Shown here: positions 2,280-14,120 of the stretch, piece by piece
How the letters are laid out: each line of letters starts with the position of its first letter
How positions within the stretch are numbered: position 1 is the first letter of the stretch
Virus record (IMG/VR): IMGVR_UViG_3300033147_000114
Location: 1 to 26,396 of that record
Origin: a virus
DNA length: 26,396 nucleotides
Reading direction: 5' to 3' (one strand)
The notes under the pieces: model-generated
What the model saw: the letters and a program-made list of their open reading frames with translations, nothing else
Databases searched by the model: none
Told to the model about the DNA's origin: nothing
Position numbers and translations under genes: made by a program

Positions 2280-5200
2280 CTATTTCTGCCAGACGATCGC
2301 CGCGAGCTTAACCGAGATGAACGGGCCGGCGCCGAGGTTGATCGTCTCGACCGTTACATCCAGAACCTCGCCGAACGCGAAGCCGAAGTCCAGGTGCGTC
2401 AGGCTGACCAGGTCGCCCAGGGCGAGCTCGAGCGCGAACAGGGGAAGGCTCATCTCGACAAGCCAGCGCGGCGAGCTCCGGCGAAGCAGGTCGCGCTCGG
2501 TGACGAGCTCGGCCGTTCCCTGGTCGCGGATCAGGTCGAGCTCGCGAGCTTCCTCGCGCCGGCCGAACTCGAGCTCGGCCGCGTCGTTGATGACCTCGAC
2601 GCTTCCGCCGGAGTCGCCGGTGTGAGCGAGCGGCTTGAACTTGACCTGGTAGCGGGTGCGCGTGTCGTCGAGCGCGGTCCTCGAGAAGCCGAGCGAGTCG
2701 CGAAGCACGTCGTCGTTCTCGAGGTCGGTGAACGCCTCGAAGGTCGTGCCGGCGACGAACTTGATGATGCCGTCCGTTCGGAGCAAGCCACCCACGAACG
2801 GCTTGCGGATGATGCGGTGCTTGCCTCGCGCCCAGGCTTGGCGGAAGTCGCACTGGTCGGCCAGGGCGGCGAGCACGTCGAGCGTGTTGATCTGGCTGGT
2901 GATGGTGAAGTCGGCGCGGATCGCGTCGGCCGCGAATCCGGTGCGGGCCGGGTTGTAGTCCTCGCGTGCGATCGCCGTCGAGGGGAGGCCCATCCCTTGA
3001 GGCGCGGCCGTAGTGACGATGCTCTCGGCGATGTCGGCCGGGTTGCCGTCGGTGACCTTGCCGGTCACGTCGGCGAACACGTCGGGGACGCTCGAGCTCG
3101 CATCGAAGAACGGCTGATACTCGACGACCCAAAACACTTCGAGGATGCGGAGCTCGCCGGCCGAGCTCTCGACGGCGACCGAGCCGCCGCGAAGCGGGTC
3201 GGAGAAGAACGACCAATCCCCATCGACGAAGTCGGTGACCTCGAAGTGATTGGTGATGCCCTTGCGATCCTCGATGACGGGATCGGGCGGGGGCTCTTTC
3301 TCGAGCTCGATGACCAGGTCGCAGGTGTGAGCCACCCAGGTGTTGAGGCAGGTGACGGGATCGAGCGAGCCGTTCGATGGTGCGCTCGGCTCGAGAACCA
3401 TCCGGAGTCCCTTGAGAAGCTGGAGGCGATCGCCCAGGACATCGATGGGGATCGAGTCGCCGGAGCCGTGAGGAAGCACGTCGCTTCGATACTCCTCCGG
3501 CGCCAGGATGCATCCGGTCGGGATGGTCGGCTCCGTCTCGCCGGGGAGCGCGTTGAAGTGCCGACACCGAACCTCGGAGGCCGCGACCTTGCCGCTCCCA
3601 TCTTCGAGGTAGGCGAGGAGCGGCGCGTAGATGTAGCCGAGGAGCGTGACGGTATCCACCCACACTCTGATGTAGGCGTTGACGACCTTGAAGCCGGAGG
3701 ATGCCGGCTCCTCCTGGCCGTCGAGAAACTTGACGCGTGCGGCGAGGCCGGGGCCGTCGCCGGCGTTGACCTCGCCGGGGATGTTGAAAGCCGTGTCGCC
3801 GGTCGTGTCGTCGCCGCCGTCGAAAATGCTCTCCGCGTTCTCGCGTTGCGTGACCAGAAGGACGTGACGGTTGACGATCTTCGGGCCGTTGCTCCAGATG
3901 CCGGCCGTCTCAATCTCGACGGCCGCGATGATCGTTTTCGTCTCCGGCTTGAATGGCTCGATCTGAACCTCCACATCGTAGAGCCGGTCGTTGGTCCGGT
4001 CGTCGAAGCGGGCGATGGCGATCGGCGTGAGGTCTTGCGCGACCAGTTGGAACTTGGCGGGGCTCTTGCTCGGGAAGGTGACCGAGCCGCCGGCGACGAT
4101 CGCCGCCGAGCTCGCCGCGCTCGCCGCCGCCTGGGCCGAGGCGAGCGCCGACGCGTGCGCCGCGCTCGCCGCGTTCTGGTCGTTCACGGCTGTCTGCACG
4201 ACGCCGGCCAGGCCGGTCGCGAACACAACGCCGTAGCCGTTCGGGATGCCGTGAACCGATCGCGTGAGCTCGTTGAAGGTCGCGATGGCCGCGTTCACTC
4301 CGTCGTCGTCGATCGAGTTGCGAACGCGCTCGGCCGTCGTCGTCGCGTTCGTGAAGCCGCCATCGGGGAGCGGAACCCAATCGAATATCTGGGAGAACAC
4401 GACGCCCTCGGCGACCTCGCCGTCCGTGAGCTCGACGAAGCCGGTCCCGTCCTCGACCTGCTCGGCCGCCGCCGTCGGTGGCGCGGAGTCGTGAACGACG
4501 GCGACCCACACGCGTTTGATGTCGCCGGGGATGCCGAGGTCGTTCACGTTCGTCGTGATCTTGAGCGGGGCCGCTGGATCGACCTTGGCATACTCGAAGG
4601 TGTCGTAGCCTGGATTCTCTCGAGCGGTGAACCGAGCATCGGCCGCGACGTTGTCGAGCTCCTGGGCGTTGAAGTGAACGCGTTGAAACAGGGAGTCCAC
4701 ACCAGACGATCGGATGCGCGGGAGCTCATCCCAGGTCGCCGTCGCCTCGGCGTGGTCGATCGAGGTCGGGCCGGGGACGGGTTCGCCCAGGTTGCCCTGG
4801 GGGTCTACGATCTTGATGTCCGTGAGCGCATCCACGGGGTGGTCGGCGAACTTGACGACGAACGGGCCGAGCTCGCGAACCTCCTTGTCCTTCGCGTGGT
4901 CGCTCGCGGTCGTGCCGTTCGCTCCTCGAGTCGCGCCGGTGAGCTCGCGGGCCGTGTCGTTCTTCCCGGTGTAGGTCACCTGCTCGTCGCCGACCTGGAT
5001 CGTTCCCGAGCTCGGGAAGCTGGACGTGTCGGTGAGCTTGATGGTCACGTCGGCGATGAAGTGATTGAAGAACAGACGGCCGACGCCGTTCGTGTTGATG
5101 ACCAAGCCAGGCGAGAGCTCGACGCGGCCGAACACGATGGGGACGACGGCGCCGAGAACCTCGGCCGGCGCGTCGGGGAAGTCGGTGAGCGTGACCAGGC

Positions 5201-5858
5201 GACCCATCAGGCGATCGTCGATGACCTCGTTCCTCACAACGTCGAGCGAGACATCGACGCGGGAGAAGCCGGGGACGCGTTCGATCTTCCCCTCAAAGAG
5301 ATGGATGCGATTCGCCACCATGCTCGGGTCGTCGGTCAAGCCGATCCAGACCGAGACGCCTCGACCTTCCGGCGCGTCGATCGCGAACAGGTCGCGGAAG
5401 CGGGCCTGGCCTCCCTGGTCGGTGTCGTCCAGAACCAGTTGAACCTCATCGGTTCCCTCGGTGATCGTGCGGAGGATCGCGCCGGCGTTCGCGAGCCGAG
5501 GCGCGTAGGGATCGGAGCCGACCAGGACGGCATGGTTGGCGAGCCGGAGCGTTCCGCCAGCCAGTCGGAGCTCGACCAGGATGATCGGGTGCGTCTCGGT
5601 GAGTCGGTAGAGGTCGGTGGGAAGCCGGAGGTCGAACGAGTCCACTGAGAACGCCGCGAGCTCGGTCGATCGGATGAGCGAATCGACCAGGGCGATCGCG
5701 CTCTGGTCACGGCCGCCGATGTGCGAATCGACCGAGAAGGTCAACGCGGGGCAGAGACGGATGCGCGAATCGACCAGGAACTGATGAAGGTTCTGCGCGA
5801 AGCACGCGCCCAGGATCGCGCCGCCCCACTTCGCTCTGGTCGGATGCCCGTAGCTCAT
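2280..5858 (-). CDS. tail hub/tip protein, 1192 aa
   Basis: The largest gene here. It probably forms the central tail tip that closes the tube and carries fibres. Residues 29-74 hold four VDS repeats. Residues about 90-260 resemble the N-terminal region of siphophage tip proteins (LFEGKIERVPGFSRVDVSL, then a stretch ending PIVFGRVELSPG). Residues about 560-590 are an Ala/Ser-rich helix. The C-terminal 250 residues have hub-like signatures: INTLDVLAALADQCDFR, RWLVEMSLPLFALELALGDL and a final FGEVLDVTVETINLGAG. The ATG overlaps the preceding TIG gene by four bases (ATGA), implying translational coupling. It lies three genes later than expected because the TIG proteins sit between the distal tail genes and the hub. 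No lysozyme or peptidase motif was seen. Confidence 0.85.
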   Translation of the reverse strand: MSYGHPTRAKWGGAILGACFAQNLHQFLVDSRIRLCPALTFSVDSHIGGRDQSAIALVDSLIRSTELAAFSVDSFDLRLPTDLYRLTETHPIILVELRLAGGTLRLANHAVLVGSDPYAPRLANAGAILRTITEGTDEVQLVLDDTDQGGQARFRDLFAIDAPEGRGVSVWIGLTDDPSMVANRIHLFEGKIERVPGFSRVDVSLDVVRNEVIDDRLMGRLVTLTDFPDAPAEVLGAVVPIVFGRVELSPGLVINTNGVGRLFFNHFIADVTIKLTDTSSFPSSGTIQVGDEQVTYTGKNDTARELTGATRGANGTTASDHAKDKEVRELGPFVVKFADHPVDALTDIKIVDPQGNLGEPVPGPTSIDHAEATATWDELPRIRSSGVDSLFQRVHFNAQELDNVAADARFTARENPGYDTFEYAKVDPAAPLKITTNVNDLGIPGDIKRVWVAVVHDSAPPTAAAEQVEDGTGFVELTDGEVAEGVVFSQIFDWVPLPDGGFTNATTTAERVRNSIDDDGVNAAIATFNELTRSVHGIPNGYGVVFATGLAGVVQTAVNDQNAASAAHASALASAQAAASAASSAAIVAGGSVTFPSKSPAKFQLVAQDLTPIAIARFDDRTNDRLYDVEVQIEPFKPETKTIIAAVEIETAGIWSNGPKIVNRHVLLVTQRENAESIFDGGDDTTGDTAFNIPGEVNAGDGPGLAARVKFLDGQEEPASSGFKVVNAYIRVWVDTVTLLGYIYAPLLAYLEDGSGKVAASEVRCRHFNALPGETEPTIPTGCILAPEEYRSDVLPHGSGDSIPIDVLGDRLQLLKGLRMVLEPSAPSNGSLDPVTCLNTWVAHTCDLVIELEKEPPPDPVIEDRKGITNHFEVTDFVDGDWSFFSDPLRGGSVAVESSAGELRILEVFWVVEYQPFFDASSSVPDVFADVTGKVTDGNPADIAESIVTTAAPQGMGLPSTAIAREDYNPARTGFAADAIRADFTITSQINTLDVLAALADQCDFRQAWARGKHRIIRKPFVGGLLRTDGIIKFVAGTTFEAFTDLENDDVLRDSLGFSRTALDDTRTRYQVKFKPLAHTGDSGGSVEVINDAAELEFGRREEARELDLIRDQGTAELVTERDLLRRSSPRWLVEMSLPLFALELALGDLVSLTHLDFGFAFGEVLDVTVETINLGAGPFISVKLAAIVWQK
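5637..5774 (-). repeat. four VDS repeats at the N-terminus of the hub protein
   Basis: The hub protein has VDS at residues 29-31, 43-45, 58-60 and 72-74, a spacing of 14, 15 and 14 residues. Each unit reads roughly (F/A)(L/S)VDS followed by a mixed hydrophobic-polar stretch. On the + strand the repeat appears as recurring copies of gaatcgacc. A regular period of this kind fits a small beta-solenoid or stacked hairpins. The repeats are too diverged and too short to be a CRISPR array and lie inside a long open frame. Confidence 0.7.
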
Positions 5859-7105
5859 GTGGTTTGCATCCTAACGCCGGCCGTCGCGTTCAACGCTGCC
5901 TGGGTTCCTGTCTTGGTAATCTCGACCTGGATGCGCTCGCCGGCCGCGACGGCGATGCTCAGGTTGCCGCCGAAGTAGCGCGAGCGATCGCCGAGAGAGA
6001 TGACGCCCGACGTGTGCGCCTCGACGCCGTCGATCAGGATGCGAACAAGGACGAGCCGGTCGGTCCCGAGTTGGAGCGTCTCGATGCCGACATAGACGGC
6101 ATCGATCGTTCCGGCCTGGGGCACCACCCACTCGTCGGCCTGGCCGGTGGTCGTGCTGGTGTTCTGCGCCATCGCGCCCATGAGTCGGGCCGTCGTCGTC
6201 GCGCTCGGAATCTGGTGACCGAAGGGGAAGTCGATGTCCGCTTCGTATCCCCACCGAACGCCCTCGGCCGCCGCCGAGTCGGCGATGAGTCGCTGGCCTT
6301 TCTCCTCGGTCGCCGTCTTGCCGTCGAGGCCGACCAGGCCGACGGCGTCGCGGGTGAGGATGTCGCCGTTGTTCGGCGTGTTGTCGCGCAAGAGGAAGTC
6401 CAGGGCCGTCGCCATCCGCTCCCACATTCGCGCCTCGGCGCGGGTCGGATCTTCGACGACGGCGCCGGTCACGGGAACGCCGCCGGTCGCTCCGGTGTTG
6501 ACGCTTCCCGCGAACTCCTCGGGGCCTGGCTCCTGGTCGGAGAGGCTCGCCGCTTCGAGGTCGGCGATGGCATCCTTGATCCAGTAGGCGACCTCGGTGA
6601 CGCGGTTGTTGTCGAAGTTGTTGACCTGGAGGATCGCGAAGCCGTCGGTGACGTTGAAGGTCGTGGGCTGCGTGATGACGATCTGGGTCGTTGACTGGCT
6701 GACGATCGTGCAAGCCGTTCCGTCGAGTCGGACGTTGTTGTTCGACGCGGCGAAGCCGGTGCCGACGATGGTGATCGTCTCGCCGCTCCGGCCGCGTTGC
6801 GGGGTGACCGACGTGACGGTGTGGATGTTGCCGTCAACCAGGAGCGCCTCGAGCACGTCGGCGACGGCGATCGCGTCGGCCGGCTCGCGGAGAATCTCGC
6901 CGGGGAGCTCGGAGCGCTCGACCTCGATCGCGTCGGCCTCGAGCTCGAGCACGTCGCCGAGCTCGATCGAGTAGCTCGCCTCGAGCTCGAGGGTGTCGGC
7001 GCCGGCGATCGCGTCGGAGATGTTCGGCTCGAAGCTGTCGAGCTCGACGGTGATCGTGTCGCCGAGCTCGAGCGAGCCAACCAGGGCTAGGTCGTGGAGC
7101 GCCAT
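5855..7105 (-). CDS. IPT/TIG-domain tail appendage protein C, 416 aa
   Basis: Third of three tandem paralogues. Residues 1-92 are an acidic repeat rich in Glu-Leu and Asp (SLELGDTITVELDSF, GDVLELEADAIEVE). An IPT/TIG immunoglobulin-like domain follows at about 94-170, with its hallmark VTPQRGRSGETITIVGTGFA. Next comes an aromatic strand end (YWIKDAIADL), matching WWSKA in the other two, then a helical region and a C-terminal beta domain (RLVLVRILIDGVEAHTSG). TIG domains are common in surface and phage fibre proteins and often mediate adhesion. The start is 1 base after the TAG of protein B; its stop overlaps the hub start. A tail-tip decoration or fibre role is inferred from domain and position. 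Confidence 0.85.
   Translation of the reverse strand: MALHDLALVGSLELGDTITVELDSFEPNISDAIAGADTLELEASYSIELGDVLELEADAIEVERSELPGEILREPADAIAVADVLEALLVDGNIHTVTSVTPQRGRSGETITIVGTGFAASNNNVRLDGTACTIVSQSTTQIVITQPTTFNVTDGFAILQVNNFDNNRVTEVAYWIKDAIADLEAASLSDQEPGPEEFAGSVNTGATGGVPVTGAVVEDPTRAEARMWERMATALDFLLRDNTPNNGDILTRDAVGLVGLDGKTATEEKGQRLIADSAAAEGVRWGYEADIDFPFGHQIPSATTTARLMGAMAQNTSTTTGQADEWVVPQAGTIDAVYVGIETLQLGTDRLVLVRILIDGVEAHTSGVISLGDRSRYFGGNLSIAVAAGERIQVEITKTGTQAALNATAGVRMQTT
6830..7105 (-). repeat. acidic Glu-Leu/Asp repeat module of TIG protein C
   Basis: The first 92 residues of TIG protein C are built from imperfect short units such as SLELGDTITVELD, GADTLELEA and GDVLELEADAIEVE, giving strong DNA periodicity with repeated gagctcg on the + strand. 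Comparable modules occur at the C-terminus of TIG protein A (about 8212-8475) and, shorter, at the C-terminus of the second tail tube protein (about 14729-14860). Alternating Asp and Leu/Val/Ile suggests short beta strands. Function is unknown. Confidence 0.55.
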
Positions 7106-7106
7106 C

Positions 7107-8045
7107 CTAGAACACTACCAGGCCGGCGACGCACTCGACCGAGCTCGTTCCGCCGTCGCCCGTCATCCGGACGCTGATTCTGCTCGAGGCCGTCAGGGTT
7201 CCAACGTCGGCCCAGACGTTCGCCGTGTAGTGATCTTGGGCCGCCAGGCCGAGGCCGGTGCCGGAGTCGTGAACCACAACGCCGTCCACTAGAATCTCGA
7301 CCTGGTCGAGCTCGCGGGTGCCGCCCTGGCGATCGACGTAGATGAGGAACACGGTCGCGAAGCCGCCGTCCGGTGTGCGGAGCTCGGCGCCGACCGAGCT
7401 CCCTTGGGTCGGGCCTCCGTGGCCGGCCATGAGCGTCGCGACGGCGTCGCTCACCTGGCGCCCCCAACAGAGGAAGGTCGGCCGCCGCGTTCGGTGGTTC
7501 GCGCCGGAGCCGCCGCCGCTGGTGCTGTGGTCGAGCATCACGGTCGAGCCGTGCGGGCCGTTCGTGATCCGGCCGACGTTCGCGCCCAGGCCGACGCCGG
7601 CCATGTCGCCCTTCGCCTGGAGCACGTCGATGGGCAGGTATTGGAGGAGCTCGTGGAGTCCCTCGATGTCCTTCGCCTCAACGTCCTCGGGGTGCTCGTC
7701 GCTCGAGGCCGCGCCCCAATCCTCAAACTCACCTGGGTTCTGCATCGCCAGGAGGAACGCCGCGAGCTCGGCCGTCGTCGCCTTGCTCCACCATTGCCGG
7801 GTGGTGACGCTGCCATCGGTCGCGTGCGTGACCTCGACGGGGACAAAGCGATCCGTCCGGATCGAGCTCGGGACGGTGACGGTGATGCTCGTCGTGCTCT
7901 CGCCGGTGACGGTCGCCGCCAGGCCATCGACCTCGACGGTGTTGCCGGCCGCCGCGAAGCCGGTGCCGGCCAGGGTGATCGAGTCGCCGGCTCGAGCTCG
8001 AGGCGGGGCGATCGCGGTGACCAGGACGCCAACGGGTGCCGCCAT
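7107..8045 (-). CDS. IPT/TIG-domain tail appendage protein B, 312 aa
   Basis: Middle member of the TIG triplet and the shortest, lacking the acidic repeat module of A and C. Residues about 8-80 form the IPT/TIG domain: AIAPPRARAGDSITLAGTGF, then NTVEVDGLAATVTGE. QWWSKATTAELAAFLLAMQ follows at about 84-102 and a helix ending DVLQAKGDMAGVGLGANVGR leads to the C-terminal beta domain, where VEILVDGVVVHDSGTGLGL closely matches protein A. The gene starts in a TGATG overlap with the small ORF before it and ends 1 base before protein C. Probably a tail-tip or fibre subunit; no enzymatic motif is visible. Confidence 0.85.
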   Translation of the reverse strand: MAAPVGVLVTAIAPPRARAGDSITLAGTGFAAAGNTVEVDGLAATVTGESTTSITVTVPSSIRTDRFVPVEVTHATDGSVTTRQWWSKATTAELAAFLLAMQNPGEFEDWGAASSDEHPEDVEAKDIEGLHELLQYLPIDVLQAKGDMAGVGLGANVGRITNGPHGSTVMLDHSTSGGGSGANHRTRRPTFLCWGRQVSDAVATLMAGHGGPTQGSSVGAELRTPDGGFATVFLIYVDRQGGTRELDQVEILVDGVVVHDSGTGLGLAAQDHYTANVWADVGTLTASSRISVRMTGDGGTSSVECVAGLVVF

Positions 8046-8215
8046 CAGGTTCTCTCAAGCCGGCGAGGAACGGTGTCGCCTGGGCGCCTGGGCCGCCCGT
8101 GCTGGCCGTTCGGCCTCGAGCTCGACGCCCAGGGCGCGGAGCTCCTCGAGCCGCTCAGGGGCCTCCCTGGGCGCCGCCTCGAGCCGGTCGTTACTGTGTA
8201 TGGGTTTACGGTCAT
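8045..8215 (-). CDS. possible small ORF between TIG proteins A and B
   Basis: An ATG overlapping the stop of TIG protein A (ATGA) opens a 56-aa frame that ends exactly in a TGATG overlap with protein B, which is what a coupled operon gene would show. However, after the first nine residues (MTVNPYTVT) this frame is only Arg/Ser/Pro/Gly-rich, as off-frame translation of this DNA usually is. The -1 frame from about position 8192 instead reads a plausible charged helix (NDRLEAAPREAPERLEELRA, then LGVELEAERPARAAQ) and stops at 8055. Either the 56-aa frame is real, or one base is missing or slipped near 8192, or the space is non-coding. I favour a small gene with a frame problem. Confidence 0.35.
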   Translation of the reverse strand: MTVNPYTVTTGSRRRPGRPLSGSRSSAPWASSSRPNGQHGRPRRPGDTVPRRLERT

Positions 8216-9447
8216 TGGGTGACCTCGACGACCAGGGCGCCGGGGCCGTCGTCGTGGATGTCGATCGCGTCGGCGAGCTCGCGAGCTCCGTCGGCGACGC
8301 GCTCGAGGTCGTCGGTCGCGCCGGCCGCGTCGGCGAGCTCGAGGCCGTAGGTCATCTCGAGCTCGATCGTGTCGGCGTCGAGCTCGATCGTGTCGGACGC
8401 CTCGCCGCCGAGCTCGACCAGGACGGCGAGCGAGTCGGTCACGGCGACGGTGTCGGCGATCAAGTCCTCTAGCGAGGTCGCCAGGACGGCCGGCCTCACT
8501 TCCTCCTCCATGGTGATCGTGGCGGTCAGGTCCATCGCGCCGCTGGTGCCGCTCTTGTCCACAAGGACGCGGAGCTCGCGACCCACCACCCACTCGTCGA
8601 GGTCAACGATGTAGGCGTCATCCGCTCCGATCGCGAGGCCGGTGCCGGAGTCGTGGAGCGTGACGAATCCATCGTTGTAGCCAACGCGCACGCGGTCGAG
8701 CGTGTCGCCGCTGACGGCCTCGACGTTGACGGTCAGGAAGCGAAGCCGGCCGCTCGTCGGCATGACGTGGTTGAGCGAGTTGCCGCCGGTCGTGCCGGAG
8801 TCGGCCGCCGCGTTGACGGCCATCGTCGAAGCCGTCGAGCCGCTCGGAATCCGCCGCCCCCATCGCATCGTCCAGGTGCGCTTCGGCTTGTTCCACTTCA
8901 AGCCGGTCGGCATCCCGGTGCCGGCCGGAACTCGGTTGAGCTCCATGCCGTCGGCGCCGACCAGAACCTCCGCGATGCCGTTCTCGTCTCGAGAGAACAC
9001 CGAGCCCTTCGCGGTGAGAACCTCCTGGGTCAGAAACTCGACGAAGGTCGCGAGCCGGTTCCACGTCGCCGCCGTGAGGCAGTCGTTTGTGGGGTTGTCC
9101 AAGTCCTCGCCGGTGGGGATCTTTTCGGTGAGCCGCGAGTCCGTTTGGAGCGTTGCCAGGCTGGCCTTGCTCCACCATCGGAACGTCGCCCACTCGTTCG
9201 TGTCTTTGCGCTGGACCAGGATCATCACCCACAGGTCAGTCGCGCAGAAGCCGAACGTCGTATAGCACGACGGGATGGCGAACACGATGTCCGTTTCGTC
9301 CTGGCTCGCGATCGAGAACGCGGTGGCTCCATCGACCTCGACGGTGTTGCCGAACGGCGAAGCCGGAGCGAAGCCGGCGCCGGCGATCGCGACGCCGGCC
9401 TGGCCGGCTCGGCCGCGTCCTGGCGTGACGGAGAAGATTTCAGGCAC
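8212..9447 (-). CDS. IPT/TIG-domain tail appendage protein A, 411 aa
   Basis: First and most elaborate of the upstream TIG pair. A GTG at 9447 is chosen because the TIG domain begins right after it (VPEIFSVTPGRGRAGQAGVA) and a G-rich ribosome site lies just upstream; upstream in-frame sequence is Arg/Ser-rich and unlikely coding. Layout: TIG domain about 3-60, FRWWSKASLATL at about 89-100, helical region with VLTAKGSVFSRDENGIAEVL, C-terminal beta domain with FVTLHDSGTGLAIGADDAY, and an acidic repeat at about 325-411 (ADTVAVTDSLAVLVEL, SDTIELDADTIELE). It overlaps the previous gene by 8 bases. Adhesin or fibre function is inferred from the fold. Confidence 0.85.
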   Translation of the reverse strand: MPEIFSVTPGRGRAGQAGVAIAGAGFAPASPFGNTVEVDGATAFSIASQDETDIVFAIPSCYTTFGFCATDLWVMILVQRKDTNEWATFRWWSKASLATLQTDSRLTEKIPTGEDLDNPTNDCLTAATWNRLATFVEFLTQEVLTAKGSVFSRDENGIAEVLVGADGMELNRVPAGTGMPTGLKWNKPKRTWTMRWGRRIPSGSTASTMAVNAAADSGTTGGNSLNHVMPTSGRLRFLTVNVEAVSGDTLDRVRVGYNDGFVTLHDSGTGLAIGADDAYIVDLDEWVVGRELRVLVDKSGTSGAMDLTATITMEEEVRPAVLATSLEDLIADTVAVTDSLAVLVELGGEASDTIELDADTIELEMTYGLELADAAGATDDLERVADGARELADAIDIHDDGPGALVVEVTQ

Positions 9448-9811
9448 GGGGCGCCCCCCGTCTACACGCCGCCTGGATCGCCTGGACGGCCGCGCCCACT
9501 TCCTCCTGGGTTCGTCCGATCCCGATGACCTCGCCCGAGCTCCAGACAAACAGGCGACGGTCGTCGCCGAGGATGTCGCCGAACGACCAGACGCGTTGCT
9601 TGACGCCGACGCCCATCGAGAAGTCGGCCGCGCACTTGACGGCCGCCGGTCCCGAGAGGAACAAGCGCGGGAGTCCAGGGAAGCACCACATCGCCGCGAT
9701 CGCCTCGGCCATGAGCCCGCACACGTTCCCGTTGGGGCCGTCGCCGGCGCCCATGACGACCTCGCCGGTCGGCATGAGCAGAGCCCATTGGGTCGGAGGC
9801 AGAGCCGTCAT
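9440..9811 (-). CDS. hypothetical 123-aa protein between tail genes
   Basis: A 123-aa protein without a recognised family. It has three Cys residues (NVCGLM, MWCFPG, VKCAAD) but no paired CxxC motif. The frame begins 2 bases after the TAA of the 174-aa gene and ends within the start of TIG protein A, so it is embedded in the tail operon. The sequence (WALLMPTGEVVMGAGDGPNG, RLFVWSSGEVIGIGRTQEE) looks like a compact alpha/beta domain, in which a short strand with Gly turns is repeated at the two ends. It may be a tip accessory protein; function unknown. Confidence 0.78.
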   Translation of the reverse strand: MTALPPTQWALLMPTGEVVMGAGDGPNGNVCGLMAEAIAAMWCFPGLPRLFLSGPAAVKCAADFSMGVGVKQRVWSFGDILGDDRRLFVWSSGEVIGIGRTQEEVGAAVQAIQAACRRGAPRA

Positions 9812-9813
9812 CC

Positions 9814-10338
9814 TTAGCTCTCATCGTATCGGTAGGTGAGGGTCTTGCTTCCGCCGTCGCCACCGACGGCCGAGCTCGCCACTTCGAGTTGGAGCATCAC
9901 ATGATCTTGCAGGGCGCCGCCGGCGAACGGCGCGATGTCGTTCGCGCCATCGACGAAGTTGCCGGCCTGGATGATCTTCGGGATGTTCGCGGTGAAGCTG
10001 TCCACGTCAACGGCCGAGATGGCGAGCTCGGCATCCGCCGCCGTCGCCTGGACGTAGCTCGTCGAGGTTCCGAACAGAACGCGCTGGCCGTCGCCGATCG
10101 CCGAGCCGTCGGAGAAGAATCGCAAGTTGCTCAGGAAGTTGTCGGGGAGCGAGCTCGCGACAAGGAGGAAGCTCTTTCGCCAGGAGTAGGTGACGCCGGC
10201 CGCCGGCCGGTCGATCGGCGCCGCCGCATCCTGGGCGTCGTCGTCGGCGAGCTTGAAGCGGGCCGTCTGGCCGGTGATGTTCCCGCCGAGCGCGGGGCTC
10301 CCCCCGTGCAACACTCTTACCTCTACAGTCGCCGCCAT
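9814..10338 (-). CDS. probable minor tail protein, 174 aa
   Basis: A 174-aa beta-rich protein. The pattern of an N-terminal strand (ATVEVRVLHGG), GQTARFKLADDD, a Pro/Gly turn, then YSWRKSFLLVASSLP and LRFFSDG resembles small beta-sandwich proteins found in siphophage tail clusters near the tape measure gene. I recognise the pattern but not a named family. GGAGG lies 6 bases before the ATG, and the gene follows the 162-aa distal-tail-like protein after 12 bases. It has no membrane segment or catalytic motif. A virion subunit near the tail tip is the best inference. Confidence 0.82.
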   Translation of the reverse strand: MAATVEVRVLHGGSPALGGNITGQTARFKLADDDAQDAAAPIDRPAAGVTYSWRKSFLLVASSLPDNFLSNLRFFSDGSAIGDGQRVLFGTSTSYVQATAADAELAISAVDVDSFTANIPKIIQAGNFVDGANDIAPFAGGALQDHVMLQLEVASSAVGGDGGSKTLTYRYDES

Positions 10339-10350
10339 CCTGGCCTCCCT

Positions 10351-10839
10351 CTATGCCGCTCGGTGGATTCTAAACCGGAGGTCCAGACTAAAGCGCTCAT
10401 CCCGTTCCTGGTCGAACGCGAGCTCTGACTGGTCGAGGAACACATCGCGCAGGTTCGCCGTGTCGGCGTTGACTGTTTGGCCGGCCTTGTAGCCGTCGCC
10501 GGCCTGGACGACGGCGCCATCGATGACCATGCCGGCCTTGAGCGTTTGCGGGAAACTCGAGCCGGTGATGTCGATCGAGAACGGCCGCGCTTGCCGGAGC
10601 GTTCCATCGCGGCCGAAGAACGCCTCGAGGTCGGCGCGTTCGGTCGTCGTCAGGAATCCCCACGACGCATCCACGAACTGGTCGGAGCCGTCGAGGTCTT
10701 GCACGTAGACGATGCCGCCCTCGGTGATGCCGCGCCCTTGGCGAAAGTTGCGCCGATCGACATCGTTGAACTCGGCATTCCGAATCGTCGCGGTGAGCGT
10801 GACGCCCTCGGGGTTCGTGACGGTGAAGGTCCACGACAT
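10351..10839 (-). CDS. distal tail-like structural protein, 162 aa
   Basis: A 162-aa protein directly after the tape measure gene, sharing one base with its stop codon (TAATG), so the two are probably translationally coupled. It has the plan of small phage tail proteins at this spot: MSWTFTVTNPEGVTLTATIR, RRNFRQGRGITEGGIVYVQD, then FLTTTERADLEAFFGRDG at about 62-79, and a closing strand (RFSLDLRFRIHR). The middle 'tttER..L..FF' segment is characteristic of beta-sandwich tail proteins that act around the tape measure and tip. Probably a distal tail or tail-tip ring component. No enzyme motif. Confidence 0.85.
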   Translation of the reverse strand: MSWTFTVTNPEGVTLTATIRNAEFNDVDRRNFRQGRGITEGGIVYVQDLDGSDQFVDASWGFLTTTERADLEAFFGRDGTLRQARPFSIDITGSSFPQTLKAGMVIDGAVVQAGDGYKAGQTVNADTANLRDVFLDQSELAFDQERDERFSLDLRFRIHRAA

Positions 10840-13800
10840 TAGAACGGGCCGCCTTGCTTCACGCCGAGCTTCGTCTGGCGCCGGAGCTCGGGGAGCATGG
10901 CGCGAATCTGCGCCCGTGTTCCGATCGTGCTGCGATCGCTCGCGTTGATGGTGTTGTTCACGGTGACGCCTCGGTTGAGCTTGCGGAGCTCGGCCGCGCC
11001 CAGGGCGTTCGCCGCCTTCCTACGGATGACGAACTCGCCACGGTGACCGATGAACGCGCCCGTCTTTGAGAGGAAGCCGCCGCGCTGCCTGCTCTCGATC
11101 TGCCCATCGTTCCCGATCGGCCGGCCGGTGATCGAGCGCCGGCCGCTCGAGCTCGAGCGGAACGAGCCGGCGCCGCTGGCCGCGCTGGTGACGCCCTGGG
11201 CCGACGCCTTGAGTCCGTCCATCGCCTTGGCCGCCGCGTCGAGCTCGCCAGCCAGGCCGGCCTTGCCTGCCTTGTCGGCCGCCGCTTGCATCGACTTCGC
11301 GAGCCTGTCGAGCTCGGCCTTCGCCGGGTCTTTCGCCGCGTCGGCGAGCTTCCGCATCTCGTCGGCGAGCCGCTGGAACTTCGCCTGGGCCTTCGGGCCA
11401 GTCGCGTCGCCCAGGGCGACGAACTTGCGTTGGAGCTTGCCGAAGCTGCCAGGCAGGTCGGCCTTCTTAATCGCCTCGCCCGTAGACTCGAAAAGCTGCT
11501 GGGTCTTGGTGACGGCCGCCGTGAATTGCTCGGGGGTCGTGAGGCCGGCGAGGCCGTCGGTGATCTCTTGCTTGAGCTTGAGGAACGCGGGGCCGAACGC
11601 GTCGGTGCCGATGCTCCTGGCGAGCTCTTTGATCTTGTCTTTGACGGCCGTGAACGAGGCCGACACTTTGGGATCGTCGGCCGCTTCCTTCGCGAGCTTG
11701 CGGAAGCGCTGGAACAGTTGCGCGAGCGCTTCCATCGCTCCCTGCTGGCCGCCGCCGCCGCCGCCGCCGCCTCGAGCTCCTGGGCCTTGGACCATGCCGC
11801 CGAACTGGCCGGAGCCGCCGCCCTGGCCGCCCGTCGCGCCGACGGTTCCAAACTGGCCGCCGCCGCCTCGGAGTCCTGGGAAGCCGGCGCCGCGTTGGCC
11901 GCGCACGATGCCCAGGGTGAGCCGGCCGCGTGAGCCGCCGCCGCTTCGCTGGTGCCGCCGCCGGCCACCTGGACGGCCGCCGCCTGGACGGCCGCGTTTC
12001 TTCGCCGCGCTCTCGAGCTCCTTCCGTTGCTGCCGCACCGAGGTCGTCATCCGGTTGGTCTTTTTGGCCGCCTCCTCCTGGGCGTCGCCGACGCCGTCGA
12101 TCTTCTCCTTGAGCTTGTCGAAGCGCGTGCCGAGGTTGCCGAGGATCTCGACCTGCTCGGCGAGCTTGCGCGAGCTCACGGCCGCCGCGTCGCCCATCAT
12201 CTTCTCGGCGTCGGCGATCCCCTTGGCCGCCTTGTCGAACTTCTTGGCCGCGTCCTCGCCGGCGACCAGGGCGACGGCCGCCGCGATCCCCTCGGCGACG
12301 AACTTGACGGCCTTGAGCGTGCCCTCCGCGATCGTGAAGATGGCGAGGCTCGCCGCGTTGCCGGCCGTGAGGATCGCCGCGCTCGCTCCCTCAAACGCGA
12401 CGATGATGCCGGCCGCGATGCCGCCGATCGAGGAGAACGCGGTGGCCGTCTCGCTGCCGGCGATCCCTGCCGCCTTCGCCATCTCTCCGATCGCCGCGAT
12501 GATCTTCTTGATGAACAGGATCGACGACTTCACGAAGCGCCCGATGCTCTTGCCCATCTCGGTCGCCGAGTTGATGAACGCCTTGCCGTTCTTCTCGACG
12601 AACACCAGGAACTCATCGAACGCGCTGCCAGCGCTCGAGAGGTCAACGCCGACGGCCGTGAGGAATCCGTTGATGGCCGCCTTCGCGACGTTCACGAAGA
12701 TCGTGACGACGCGACCGATCTGCTCGCTTCGCTTCTGCATGAACTCGGCGAAGCTGCCGAACACCTTGCGGGCCTTCGTCACCATGTTGTTGAGCGCGGT
12801 GACGATCGGAACGAAGATCGGCGCGAGTCCCTCGCCGAGAGAACGGAACGCATCCTTCGCGCCCTGGACGACGCTCGAGAACTGGAATGCCAGAGTCCGT
12901 TCGACCTTCTTGAAAGCCGTCTCGGCCGCGCCGGTCGCGTTGCGCGTTTGCTTGAGCGTGTCGATGAACTTCTTGAAGCCGTCGCCGGCGAGGATGCTGA
13001 CGCCGTTGAGCGCTCGCACGTTCGGGAAGAACTCAACCAGTCGCCGGTTGTTCTGTCGGACGGCCGTCCGAACTTTGGTGATGGCGTCCTCGAGCCCTAG
13101 CTGGCTATCGGCGAGCGTGTCGGCCGAGACGCCGATGCTCGCGAACGCCTTGGCCGCCGACTCGCTCGGCTTGAGGATGCCGACGATGGTCGCCTTGAGC
13201 GCGGTGCTCGTCTCGGCCGTGTTCAATCCGCTCGCGGTGATCGACGCCATCGCGGCCGACATATCGGCGAAGCGCACGCCGGCCGACGCGGCGACGGGGG
13301 CGACCTGGCCGATCGACGCGGCGAGCTCGGACATCGTTGTCTTGCCGGCCTTGATCGTCGCGAACAGAACGTCGGACGCATTGTCCACGTCGATCGCCTG
13401 GCCGACAAACGCGTTCATCACGGTGGTCAACGCGTCCACGGCTTCGTCGGCCGTCGAGGCGCCGGCCGCCGCTGCCTTGAACGCGGCCTCTAGGAACGCC
13501 GGCGCCTGGGCGACGGTTCGCCCAGCCGAGATGGCTTGGTAAGCCGCCTCGGTCGCTTCGAGCACGTCAACGCCCATCGTCACCGAGAGTTGCCGGAGCT
13601 CCTTCGATAGCCTGGCGATCGCCTTGGGCTGGCCGTCGATGAGCGTCGTGACCTGAGCGAACTTCTTTTCAAACTTGGCGAACGATACGACGGCCGCGAT
13701 GCCGACGCCGGTGAGCGCCGCGCCGGCGACGGCCGAGAGCTTCGCCATCGTTTTGAGGCCGCCGGCGATCCCCTTGAACGCCTTGCCGAGTTTCGCGCCG

Positions 13801-13916
13801 GTGCTCTCGCCTTGCTTGGTGAGGTCGCCCAGGCTGCGTTGCGCCTTCTTCGACGCACCGACGAAGCCGCGAGAGTCGCCGGAGATTCTTCCTTCGAGCT
13901 CTGGGCCTCTTGCCAT
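10839..13916 (-). CDS. tail tape measure protein, 1025 aa
   Basis: This protein sets tail length and is thought to sit inside the tube and be released on infection. Evidence is the length, the position after the chaperone pair, and sequence typical of TIGR01760-like tape measures: FEKKFAQVTTLIDG, then TEAAYQAISAG, then MSELAASIGQVAPVAASAGV and a long helical remainder. Hydrophobic segments lie near residues 62-79 and 492-535, as is usual for tape measures. Residues about 637-725 are an unusual Gly/Arg-rich, probably disordered linker with a run of eight glycines. The C-terminus has GAFIGHRGEFVIRRKAANAL, a motif frequent at tape measure C-termini. It begins 3 bases after the chaperone stop. 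Assuming about 1.5 angstrom per helical residue, a tail near 150 nm would be expected; this is inference. Confidence 0.95.
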   Translation of the reverse strand: MARGPELEGRISGDSRGFVGASKKAQRSLGDLTKQGESTGAKLGKAFKGIAGGLKTMAKLSAVAGAALTGVGIAAVVSFAKFEKKFAQVTTLIDGQPKAIARLSKELRQLSVTMGVDVLEATEAAYQAISAGRTVAQAPAFLEAAFKAAAAGASTADEAVDALTTVMNAFVGQAIDVDNASDVLFATIKAGKTTMSELAASIGQVAPVAASAGVRFADMSAAMASITASGLNTAETSTALKATIVGILKPSESAAKAFASIGVSADTLADSQLGLEDAITKVRTAVRQNNRRLVEFFPNVRALNGVSILAGDGFKKFIDTLKQTRNATGAAETAFKKVERTLAFQFSSVVQGAKDAFRSLGEGLAPIFVPIVTALNNMVTKARKVFGSFAEFMQKRSEQIGRVVTIFVNVAKAAINGFLTAVGVDLSSAGSAFDEFLVFVEKNGKAFINSATEMGKSIGRFVKSSILFIKKIIAAIGEMAKAAGIAGSETATAFSSIGGIAAGIIVAFEGASAAILTAGNAASLAIFTIAEGTLKAVKFVAEGIAAAVALVAGEDAAKKFDKAAKGIADAEKMMGDAAAVSSRKLAEQVEILGNLGTRFDKLKEKIDGVGDAQEEAAKKTNRMTTSVRQQRKELESAAKKRGRPGGGRPGGRRRHQRSGGGSRGRLTLGIVRGQRGAGFPGLRGGGGQFGTVGATGGQGGGSGQFGGMVQGPGARGGGGGGGGQQGAMEALAQLFQRFRKLAKEAADDPKVSASFTAVKDKIKELARSIGTDAFGPAFLKLKQEITDGLAGLTTPEQFTAAVTKTQQLFESTGEAIKKADLPGSFGKLQRKFVALGDATGPKAQAKFQRLADEMRKLADAAKDPAKAELDRLAKSMQAAADKAGKAGLAGELDAAAKAMDGLKASAQGVTSAASGAGSFRSSSSGRRSITGRPIGNDGQIESRQRGGFLSKTGAFIGHRGEFVIRRKAANALGAAELRKLNRGVTVNNTINASDRSTIGTRAQIRAMLPELRRQTKLGVKQGGPF

Positions 13917-13919
13917 CCT

Positions 13920-14120
13920 TTACTCTGCTCCTCGCGAGCTCGCCGCTTCGTGTTCTTCGGAGTCTCTCAGTGCCGCGTAGGACAAGAGTAACACCTGCTC
14001 CTCGCGAGCGAGAGCACTGAACGAAGCGCCAGGAGGTAGGGGCCAGGGTGGAAGGTCTGGAAAGAGCTCCCACAAGCGGAGCTCCCAATAGACCTGCGTG
14101 CGTCGCTGGCCCTCCTCTAG
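13920..14120 (-). CDS. tail assembly chaperone, -1 frameshift extension (T part)
   Basis: A 66-aa open stretch with no good start of its own, in the -1 frame relative to the preceding 187-aa chaperone. It begins LEEGQRRTQVYWELRLWELF and contains ALAREEQVLLLSYAALRDSE, a pattern common in the second half of siphophage G-T chaperones. Ribosomes slipping at 14120-14126 would make a 253-aa fusion (187 + 66). In lambda-like phages a small fraction of ribosomes do this, and the fusion recruits the tape measure for tube assembly. The stop is 3 bases before the tape measure ATG. Confidence 0.88.
   Translation of the reverse strand, partial: LEEGQRRTQVYWELRLWELFPDLPPWPLPPGASFSALAREEQVLLLSYAALRDSEEHEAASSRGAE
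14064..14084 (-). promoter_or_regulatory. hairpin downstream of the frameshift site
   Basis: A perfect 7-bp stem (GAGCTCC with GGAGCTC) and a 7-base loop lies about 35 bases after the slippery heptamer in the mRNA. Classical stimulatory structures lie 5-9 bases downstream, so its role in frameshifting is uncertain. It is recorded because it is the clearest local structure. Confidence 0.35.

Follow-up and report, generated by a model that had tools for sequence, protein, structure and literature searches.

The tail-tip hub protein described here carries a conserved piece of about 88 residues ahead of its HDI domain, and this extension is found in a clade with TIG tail proteins. The DNA under study is a stretch of 26,396 nucleotides from a virus (IMG/VR record IMGVR_UViG_3300033147_000114, positions 1 to 26,396), called the window below. 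Since the same extension occurs in six hubs, all accompanied by TIG proteins, it may help to attach host-binding parts to the tip of the tail. A putative docking or adapter role for TIG proteins is our best guess, and we consider this reading as a whole plausible, if somewhat short of an even chance. The hub gene and the parts of its extension are as follows.

2280..5858, minus strand: tail-tip hub protein, an ORF of 1192 aa (stop codon included), PF13550 above the Pfam cut-off
5595..5858, minus strand: N-terminal extension, hub residues 1-88, gap-free internally in six hubs and absent from seven relatives
5808..5828, minus strand: conserved segment W11-G12 ... G17, head of the extension, invariant in six hubs
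5766..5774, minus strand: VDS unit 1, hub residues 29-31, Asp position occupied by D,D,E,N,E,D in the six hubs
5724..5732, minus strand: VDS unit 2, hub residues 43-45, Asp44 invariant in six hubs
5679..5687, minus strand: VDS unit 3, hub residues 58-60, Asp59 invariant in six hubs
5637..5645, minus strand: VDS unit 4, hub residues 72-74, Asp in 5/6 hubs (D,D,D,S,D,D)

The initial annotation had described four VDS units with a spacing of 14-15 residues at the N-terminus of the hub, next to the TIG genes and ahead of the recognisable hub sequence, and our results agreed with each of these points. VDS is found at hub residues 29, 43, 58 and 72 (spacing 14/15/14; exact span 5637-5774 of the window), the HDI-like part of the protein begins at about residue 82, and the end of a TIG gene is no more than 4 nt from the start of the hub. 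Far from these units, at residue 387, there is a fifth VDS. In 200,000 shuffles of hub residues 1-90, four VDS never appeared and at least two VDS appeared in 63. The search of other hubs for the repeat, which had been proposed together with these observations, was also positive, as all six hubs of the clade have units at these four positions.

The six extension-bearing hubs are those of the window, L003 (a relative, 70% identical), L092, L093, L095 and L096. L092 was obtained from a scan with a TIG profile, L093 and L095 with a three-hub profile in viral contigs, and L096 with the same three-hub profile in a Planctomycetota MAG, the sole Planctomycetota-titled record of the six. The pairwise identity among the hubs is 36-71%, and the first 130 columns of their alignment are gap-free except for the first residue. 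The extension measures about 88 residues in all of them, its four-unit length is fixed (6/6 hubs), and the units usually read hydrophobic-D-[S/A], with a hydrophobic residue preceding the Asp position in 24/24 cells (four units in six hubs). G4, W11, G12, G17, D44, D51 and D59 are invariant. As regards a hydrophobic leader of the kind that a secretion signal peptide has, residues 12-20 look hydrophobic by eye in the window hub alone, the aligned positions of the other hubs including charged and polar residues. Among 392 genomes of the phylum of L096, only the L096 genome gave a whole-hub match; some match to the hub at E <= 1e-5 was present in 75 of the 392, in most cases confined to a short domain (profile positions of about 255-330). 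A tblastn search of 50,697 phage records with the hub and TIG protein 3 returned no match, and the nine matches obtained with hub residues 1-100 at E up to 10 were at chance level, the best of them lying in an open frame that is an 81-residue stretch unlike a hub. A copy of the window virus was also noticed in contig 3300033154_000190 (L091), 99.97% identical over 6318 bases (window 7728-14045) and stopping short of the hub.

The start codon of the hub is credible because of its overlap with the TIG stop and the opening pattern G4/W11/G12/G17 shared by the six hubs. Both the window and L003 have the hub ATG and the stop of TIG gene 3 in a shared ATGA of 4 nt. The codons of the VDS units are unlike in these two viruses, e.g. 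GTCGATTCG vs GTGGACTCG, which indicates conservation of the protein and not of the DNA. The identity of the two extensions is also concentrated in the units, since over residues 26-80 the motif cores are identical at 17/20 positions and the spacers at 15/35 (Fisher p = 0.004). The repeat could in principle be an artefact, i.e. the product of a wrong start codon, of a DNA-level repeat read as protein, or of chance, as three of the four window units use the same codons (GTCGATTCG) and other, unlike proteins also contain bare VD[SA] motifs spaced 14/15. We find this scarcely credible: the hub start overlaps or abuts a TIG stop in 6/6 cases, the codons of L003 differ, no shuffle held four VDS, and the conservation across six hubs in effect refutes it. 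Nine stretches came from the scan for three bare VD[SA] motifs spaced 14/15, of which seven were new and either low-complexity or otherwise unlike, the other two being the L003 hub and the L017 array described below; the occurrence of the bare motif in unlike proteins means that it is not diagnostic.

The extension is under weaker constraint than the adjoining part of the hub. In the comparison of the window with L003, a rough dN/dS was 0.51 for hub residues 1-87 vs 0.20 for residues 88-147, so that the extension is constrained, yet less than the hub core. The identity of the extension vs that of the HDI domain was 49/88 vs 96/126, 50/87 vs 99/125 and 57/87 vs 97/125 in three close pairs. A rough dN/dS of about 0.5 and an identity below that of HDI in all three pairs would also be expected of a relic linker, that is, what is left of a longer array after degeneration, kept by inheritance and having no specific role. 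Such a remnant is, however, very unlikely to have stayed gap-free internally in six hubs that share 36-71% identity, with seven invariant residues (G4, W11, G12, G17, D44, D51, D59) and with motif cores better kept than spacers, the last of these being tested in one pair, window and L003.

To place the extension on the tail, we considered the following features of the hub and its tail module.

5217..5615, minus strand: HDI-like hub domain, residues 82-214, aligned by VIA-align to lambda gpL and the RcGTA hub
4851..5054, minus strand: hub domain at residues 269-336, around GTIQVGDE and widely shared, phrog_4406, the stretch most matched in Planctomycetota genomes
2394..2888, minus strand: PF13550 Phage-tail_3 region, residues 991-1155, Pfam
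10839..13916, minus strand: tape measure protein of the tail module, encoded upstream, PF10145, phrog_991

The hub gene lies downstream of the tape measure gene on the same strand. PF13550 matched the window hub with 29.4 bits, above the cut-off of 23; in the clade, L093 (22.5) and L092 (21.0) were just below it and L096 gave no match. The GTIQVGDE domain is common to many otherwise unlike proteins and matches baseplate and structural PHROGs. A first model, computed with AlphaFold2 for hub residues 1-300 from eight sequences, had a mean pLDDT of 50.6, with ten-residue blocks at 50-84 for residues 91-210 and at 27-42, i.e. of low confidence, for the extension. Its residues 82-214 were aligned by VIA-align to residues 13-159 of lambda gpL (Z 12.9, rmsd 4.5 over 124 residues), to residues 12-138 of the RcGTA hub (Z 12.5), and to the hubs of Sf11 (Z 12.2), R4C (11.9), T1 (11.7) and T5 (11.7). 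The match of residues 82-214 to HDI places the extension just before this domain. In the ten best solved hubs (Z 10-13), the aligned part starts at residues 6-25, which makes the front piece of about 88 residues an extra one. The window hub resembles the HDI hubs (lambda gpL, T5 pb3, RcGTA gp13) in its HDI alignment, with PF13550 at its own C-terminal end, and differs from them in the piece of about 88 residues in front of HDI. A sequence search of the PDB with the three-hub profile gave weak ribosomal P0 stretches only.

In the first model the extension was drawn with strands at residues 27-36, 40-49, 54-63 and 69-76, at a block pLDDT of about 30-42. A second model, to which rows of the arrays described below were added, had no strands in the extension (block pLDDT 45-57), and the fold search made with it returned nothing below E 2, an absence that says little. 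The lambda HDI domain makes up the last tail ring and is stacked there on the ring of the distal tail protein (PMC10721106), and in RcGTA, too, HDI forms the last ring of the tail, beneath the distal tail protein. In the docking reading, each VDS unit would be a strand-sized element, and the extension would lie at the outside of this last ring, in which the HDI domains are stacked below the distal tail protein. There it would act as an adapter surface to which the TIG proteins, whose genes directly precede the hub gene, could be attached. The same position may also suit a structural collar, in which the repeats of the three hub chains would pair with one another or with the ring of the distal tail protein and stiffen the tip, and no TIG protein would be bound. 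The location directly before HDI, which forms the last ring in lambda and RcGTA, the hydrophobic residue before each Asp (24/24 cells) and the poor single-chain models, as expected with partners missing, are all consistent with a collar. We nevertheless see it as possible but on the unlikely side, as seven relatives build a hub without the extension and as the extension was met only alongside TIG genes, though shared descent could give the same picture.

The docking reading depends on the genes beside the hub, which are the following.

5855..7105, minus strand: TIG protein 3, 416 aa, PF01833 at E 3.3e-9, its stop overlapping the hub start by 4 nt
7107..8045, minus strand: TIG protein 2, 312 aa, PF01833 at E 4.3e-5
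8212..9549, minus strand: TIG protein 1, an ORF with an uncertain true start, paralogue of TIG 2 and 3 by alignment, no Pfam match of its own

Among 13 records, PF01833 was found in 6/6 with the extension vs 0/7 with extension-less hubs, two of the latter seven being short fragments (L026, 5.6 kb; L028, 6.7 kb). In 6/6 extension records the end of a TIG gene falls at -4 to +4 nt relative to the start of the hub. The case that would have spoken against the link according to the initial annotation, a hub lacking the repeat beside the same TIG set, was sought and not found: the scan with the TIG alignment yielded no TIG-bearing relative without the extension, its four loci all belonging to the same clade. 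As the six hubs form one clade, the link between TIG and the extension counts as one evolutionary association and not as six, and shared descent can account for the co-occurrence. The TIG/IPT proteins (PF01833) are neighbours of the hub in 6/6 records, whereas the extension itself is not a TIG domain; it had no PF01833 match, and the hub gave PF13550 only. A further suggestion, that Asp-Ser at fixed spacing also marks the acidic modules of the TIG proteins, was not borne out, as DS/DA are irregularly spaced in these modules and the extension profile had no match to a TIG ORF at E <= 1. The modules, LADAIAVSDS-like, are a repeat of another kind; they form the N-terminal end of TIG protein 3 and the C-terminal end of TIG protein 1, do not match the profile of the hub extension, and belong to loci at 5855-7105 and 8212-9549 in the window and at 4775-6004 and 2552-3676 in L003. 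In L003, TIG gene 1 (L003:2511-3676) is split over two frames (2511-2816, 2552-3673) and is continuous in the window; the split is either a sequencing error or a real frameshift.

BppU-type adapters link receptor-binding proteins to the siphophage baseplate. The extension resembles them in its proposed role only, i.e. in mounting host-binding parts on the tip, and is unlike them in that the hub has no BppU match, the lone BppU_N match, below the cut-off, being that of the array protein of L019. To our knowledge, the way in which Ig-like and other host-binding parts are fixed to the tail tip has been worked out in few phages. No literature on TIG domains in Planctomycetota phage tails was found in our search. 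A conserved, short and separable hub extension tied to TIG genes is a testable candidate docking site.

The extension is absent from seven more distant relatives of the hub (L005, L024, L026, L027, L028, L029, L062). The profile of the HDI region gave 67 viral loci, most of which matched just the short shared domain. N-termini were read for L024, L026, L027, L028, L029 and L062, and for L005, which is on the same contig as L025. Those of L030 and L031 were read as well and set aside from the extension-less set because their matches lie 1651 and 974 residues inside larger proteins. The remaining loci, L032 among them, mostly match the short domain near query residues 180-260 and were outside this reading. 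In the profile alignments, HDI starts 22-31 residues into the open frame in L005, L024 and L026 (residues before the start codon counted) and 87-88 residues after the start codon in the extension-bearing clade. By eye, an extension-like piece was not seen at the N-termini of L027, L028, L029 and L062, nor in L098, a hub relative from a genome of the phylum of L096.

Repeats resembling those of the extension were found in other viral proteins, and we named this class "FTVDA"; the papers found under this name were unrelated. A DNA pattern of two F-S/T-V-D-S/A units 14 residues apart retrieved 16 viral stretches, of which 13 were long arrays (e.g. KTFTVDALLK repeats), one was the L003 hub (L008) and two were short unlike repeats (L006, L014). 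From eight loci we built an array profile of 117 four-unit segments, leaving out L011 and L012 (copies of L007), L018 and L020 (copies of L019), L015 (same contig as L016), and L006, L014 and L008; L006 and L014 match this profile weakly. Part of the likeness between hub and arrays is built in because the scan motif came from the hub; the pattern included neither the 15-residue period nor the positions that follow D-[S/A]. The spacing is 14 or 15 in 161/165 cases tallied in the eight proteins (spacings outside 12-18 uncounted), and the unit number varies widely, with 4 to 58 motif matches per array. Neither Pfam nor PHROGs gave a repeat family for the seven array proteins scanned, and their matches to models with zero matched stretches were dismissed as repeat noise. 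The finding in the hub also points to a repeat class, represented by 13 of the 16 pattern stretches, that is without such a family in these seven proteins.

The array profile ranked the window and L003 hubs first among the ORFs given. It scored the window N-terminus at 16.5 bits, the best of 5000 shuffles reaching 12.6, and the window, L003, L093 and L096 beat 1000/1000 of their own shuffles; for the L092 and L095 extensions it gave -1.6 and 0.2 bits, with 446 and 84 of 1000 shuffles as good. In the opposite direction, the six-extension profile found the arrays L009, L019, L017, L007, L016 and L013 (E 3e-29 to 8e-4, 1469 ORFs), with L010 and L021 at E of only 0.07-0.08 in the same ORFs. At E <= 0.01, hubs and arrays were the sole matches of the extension profile among 5730 ORFs from 126 loci. 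Its scores exceeded the best of 200 shuffles in 8/8 arrays, narrowly in L010 (9.8 vs 9.3); the scores of long arrays are sums over many units, their best single stretches giving 8-23 bits. The arrays resemble the extension in the 14/15-residue period, in the F-x-V/L-D-A/S core and in two-way profile matches for most members. They differ from it in being separate proteins with 4-58 motif matches, some with LamG, whereas the hub copy has four units and is joined to HDI.

Long FTVDA arrays were observed in L007, L009, L010, L016, L017, L019 and L021, and LamG domains are joined to those of L016 and L021. The class might adhere weakly to surfaces or decorate them, and the hub might simply bear a short copy. 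The fusion of long arrays to lectin-like LamG and the BppU_N match at the end of the L019 array protein, just under the cut-off, would fit such a binder. It seems unlikely to us, as the hub copy is fixed at four units in 6/6 hubs and the unit numbers of the arrays vary widely; the fixed register of the hub copy suggests a structural fit. A broader version of the docking reading, which we hold to be quite unlikely, is that FTVDA-type units could be a general building strip of viral tails, by which TIG or lectin-like appendages would be joined to the hub through strand pairing. Within it, and with just as slight a likelihood, the long arrays of accessory proteins and the fixed four-unit copy of the hub might offer complementary edge strands. 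Another kind of Asp-Ser repeat, with EIDS..-ELE units of about 21 residues, was noticed in a separate protein of a relative without the extension (L005:9996-11927).
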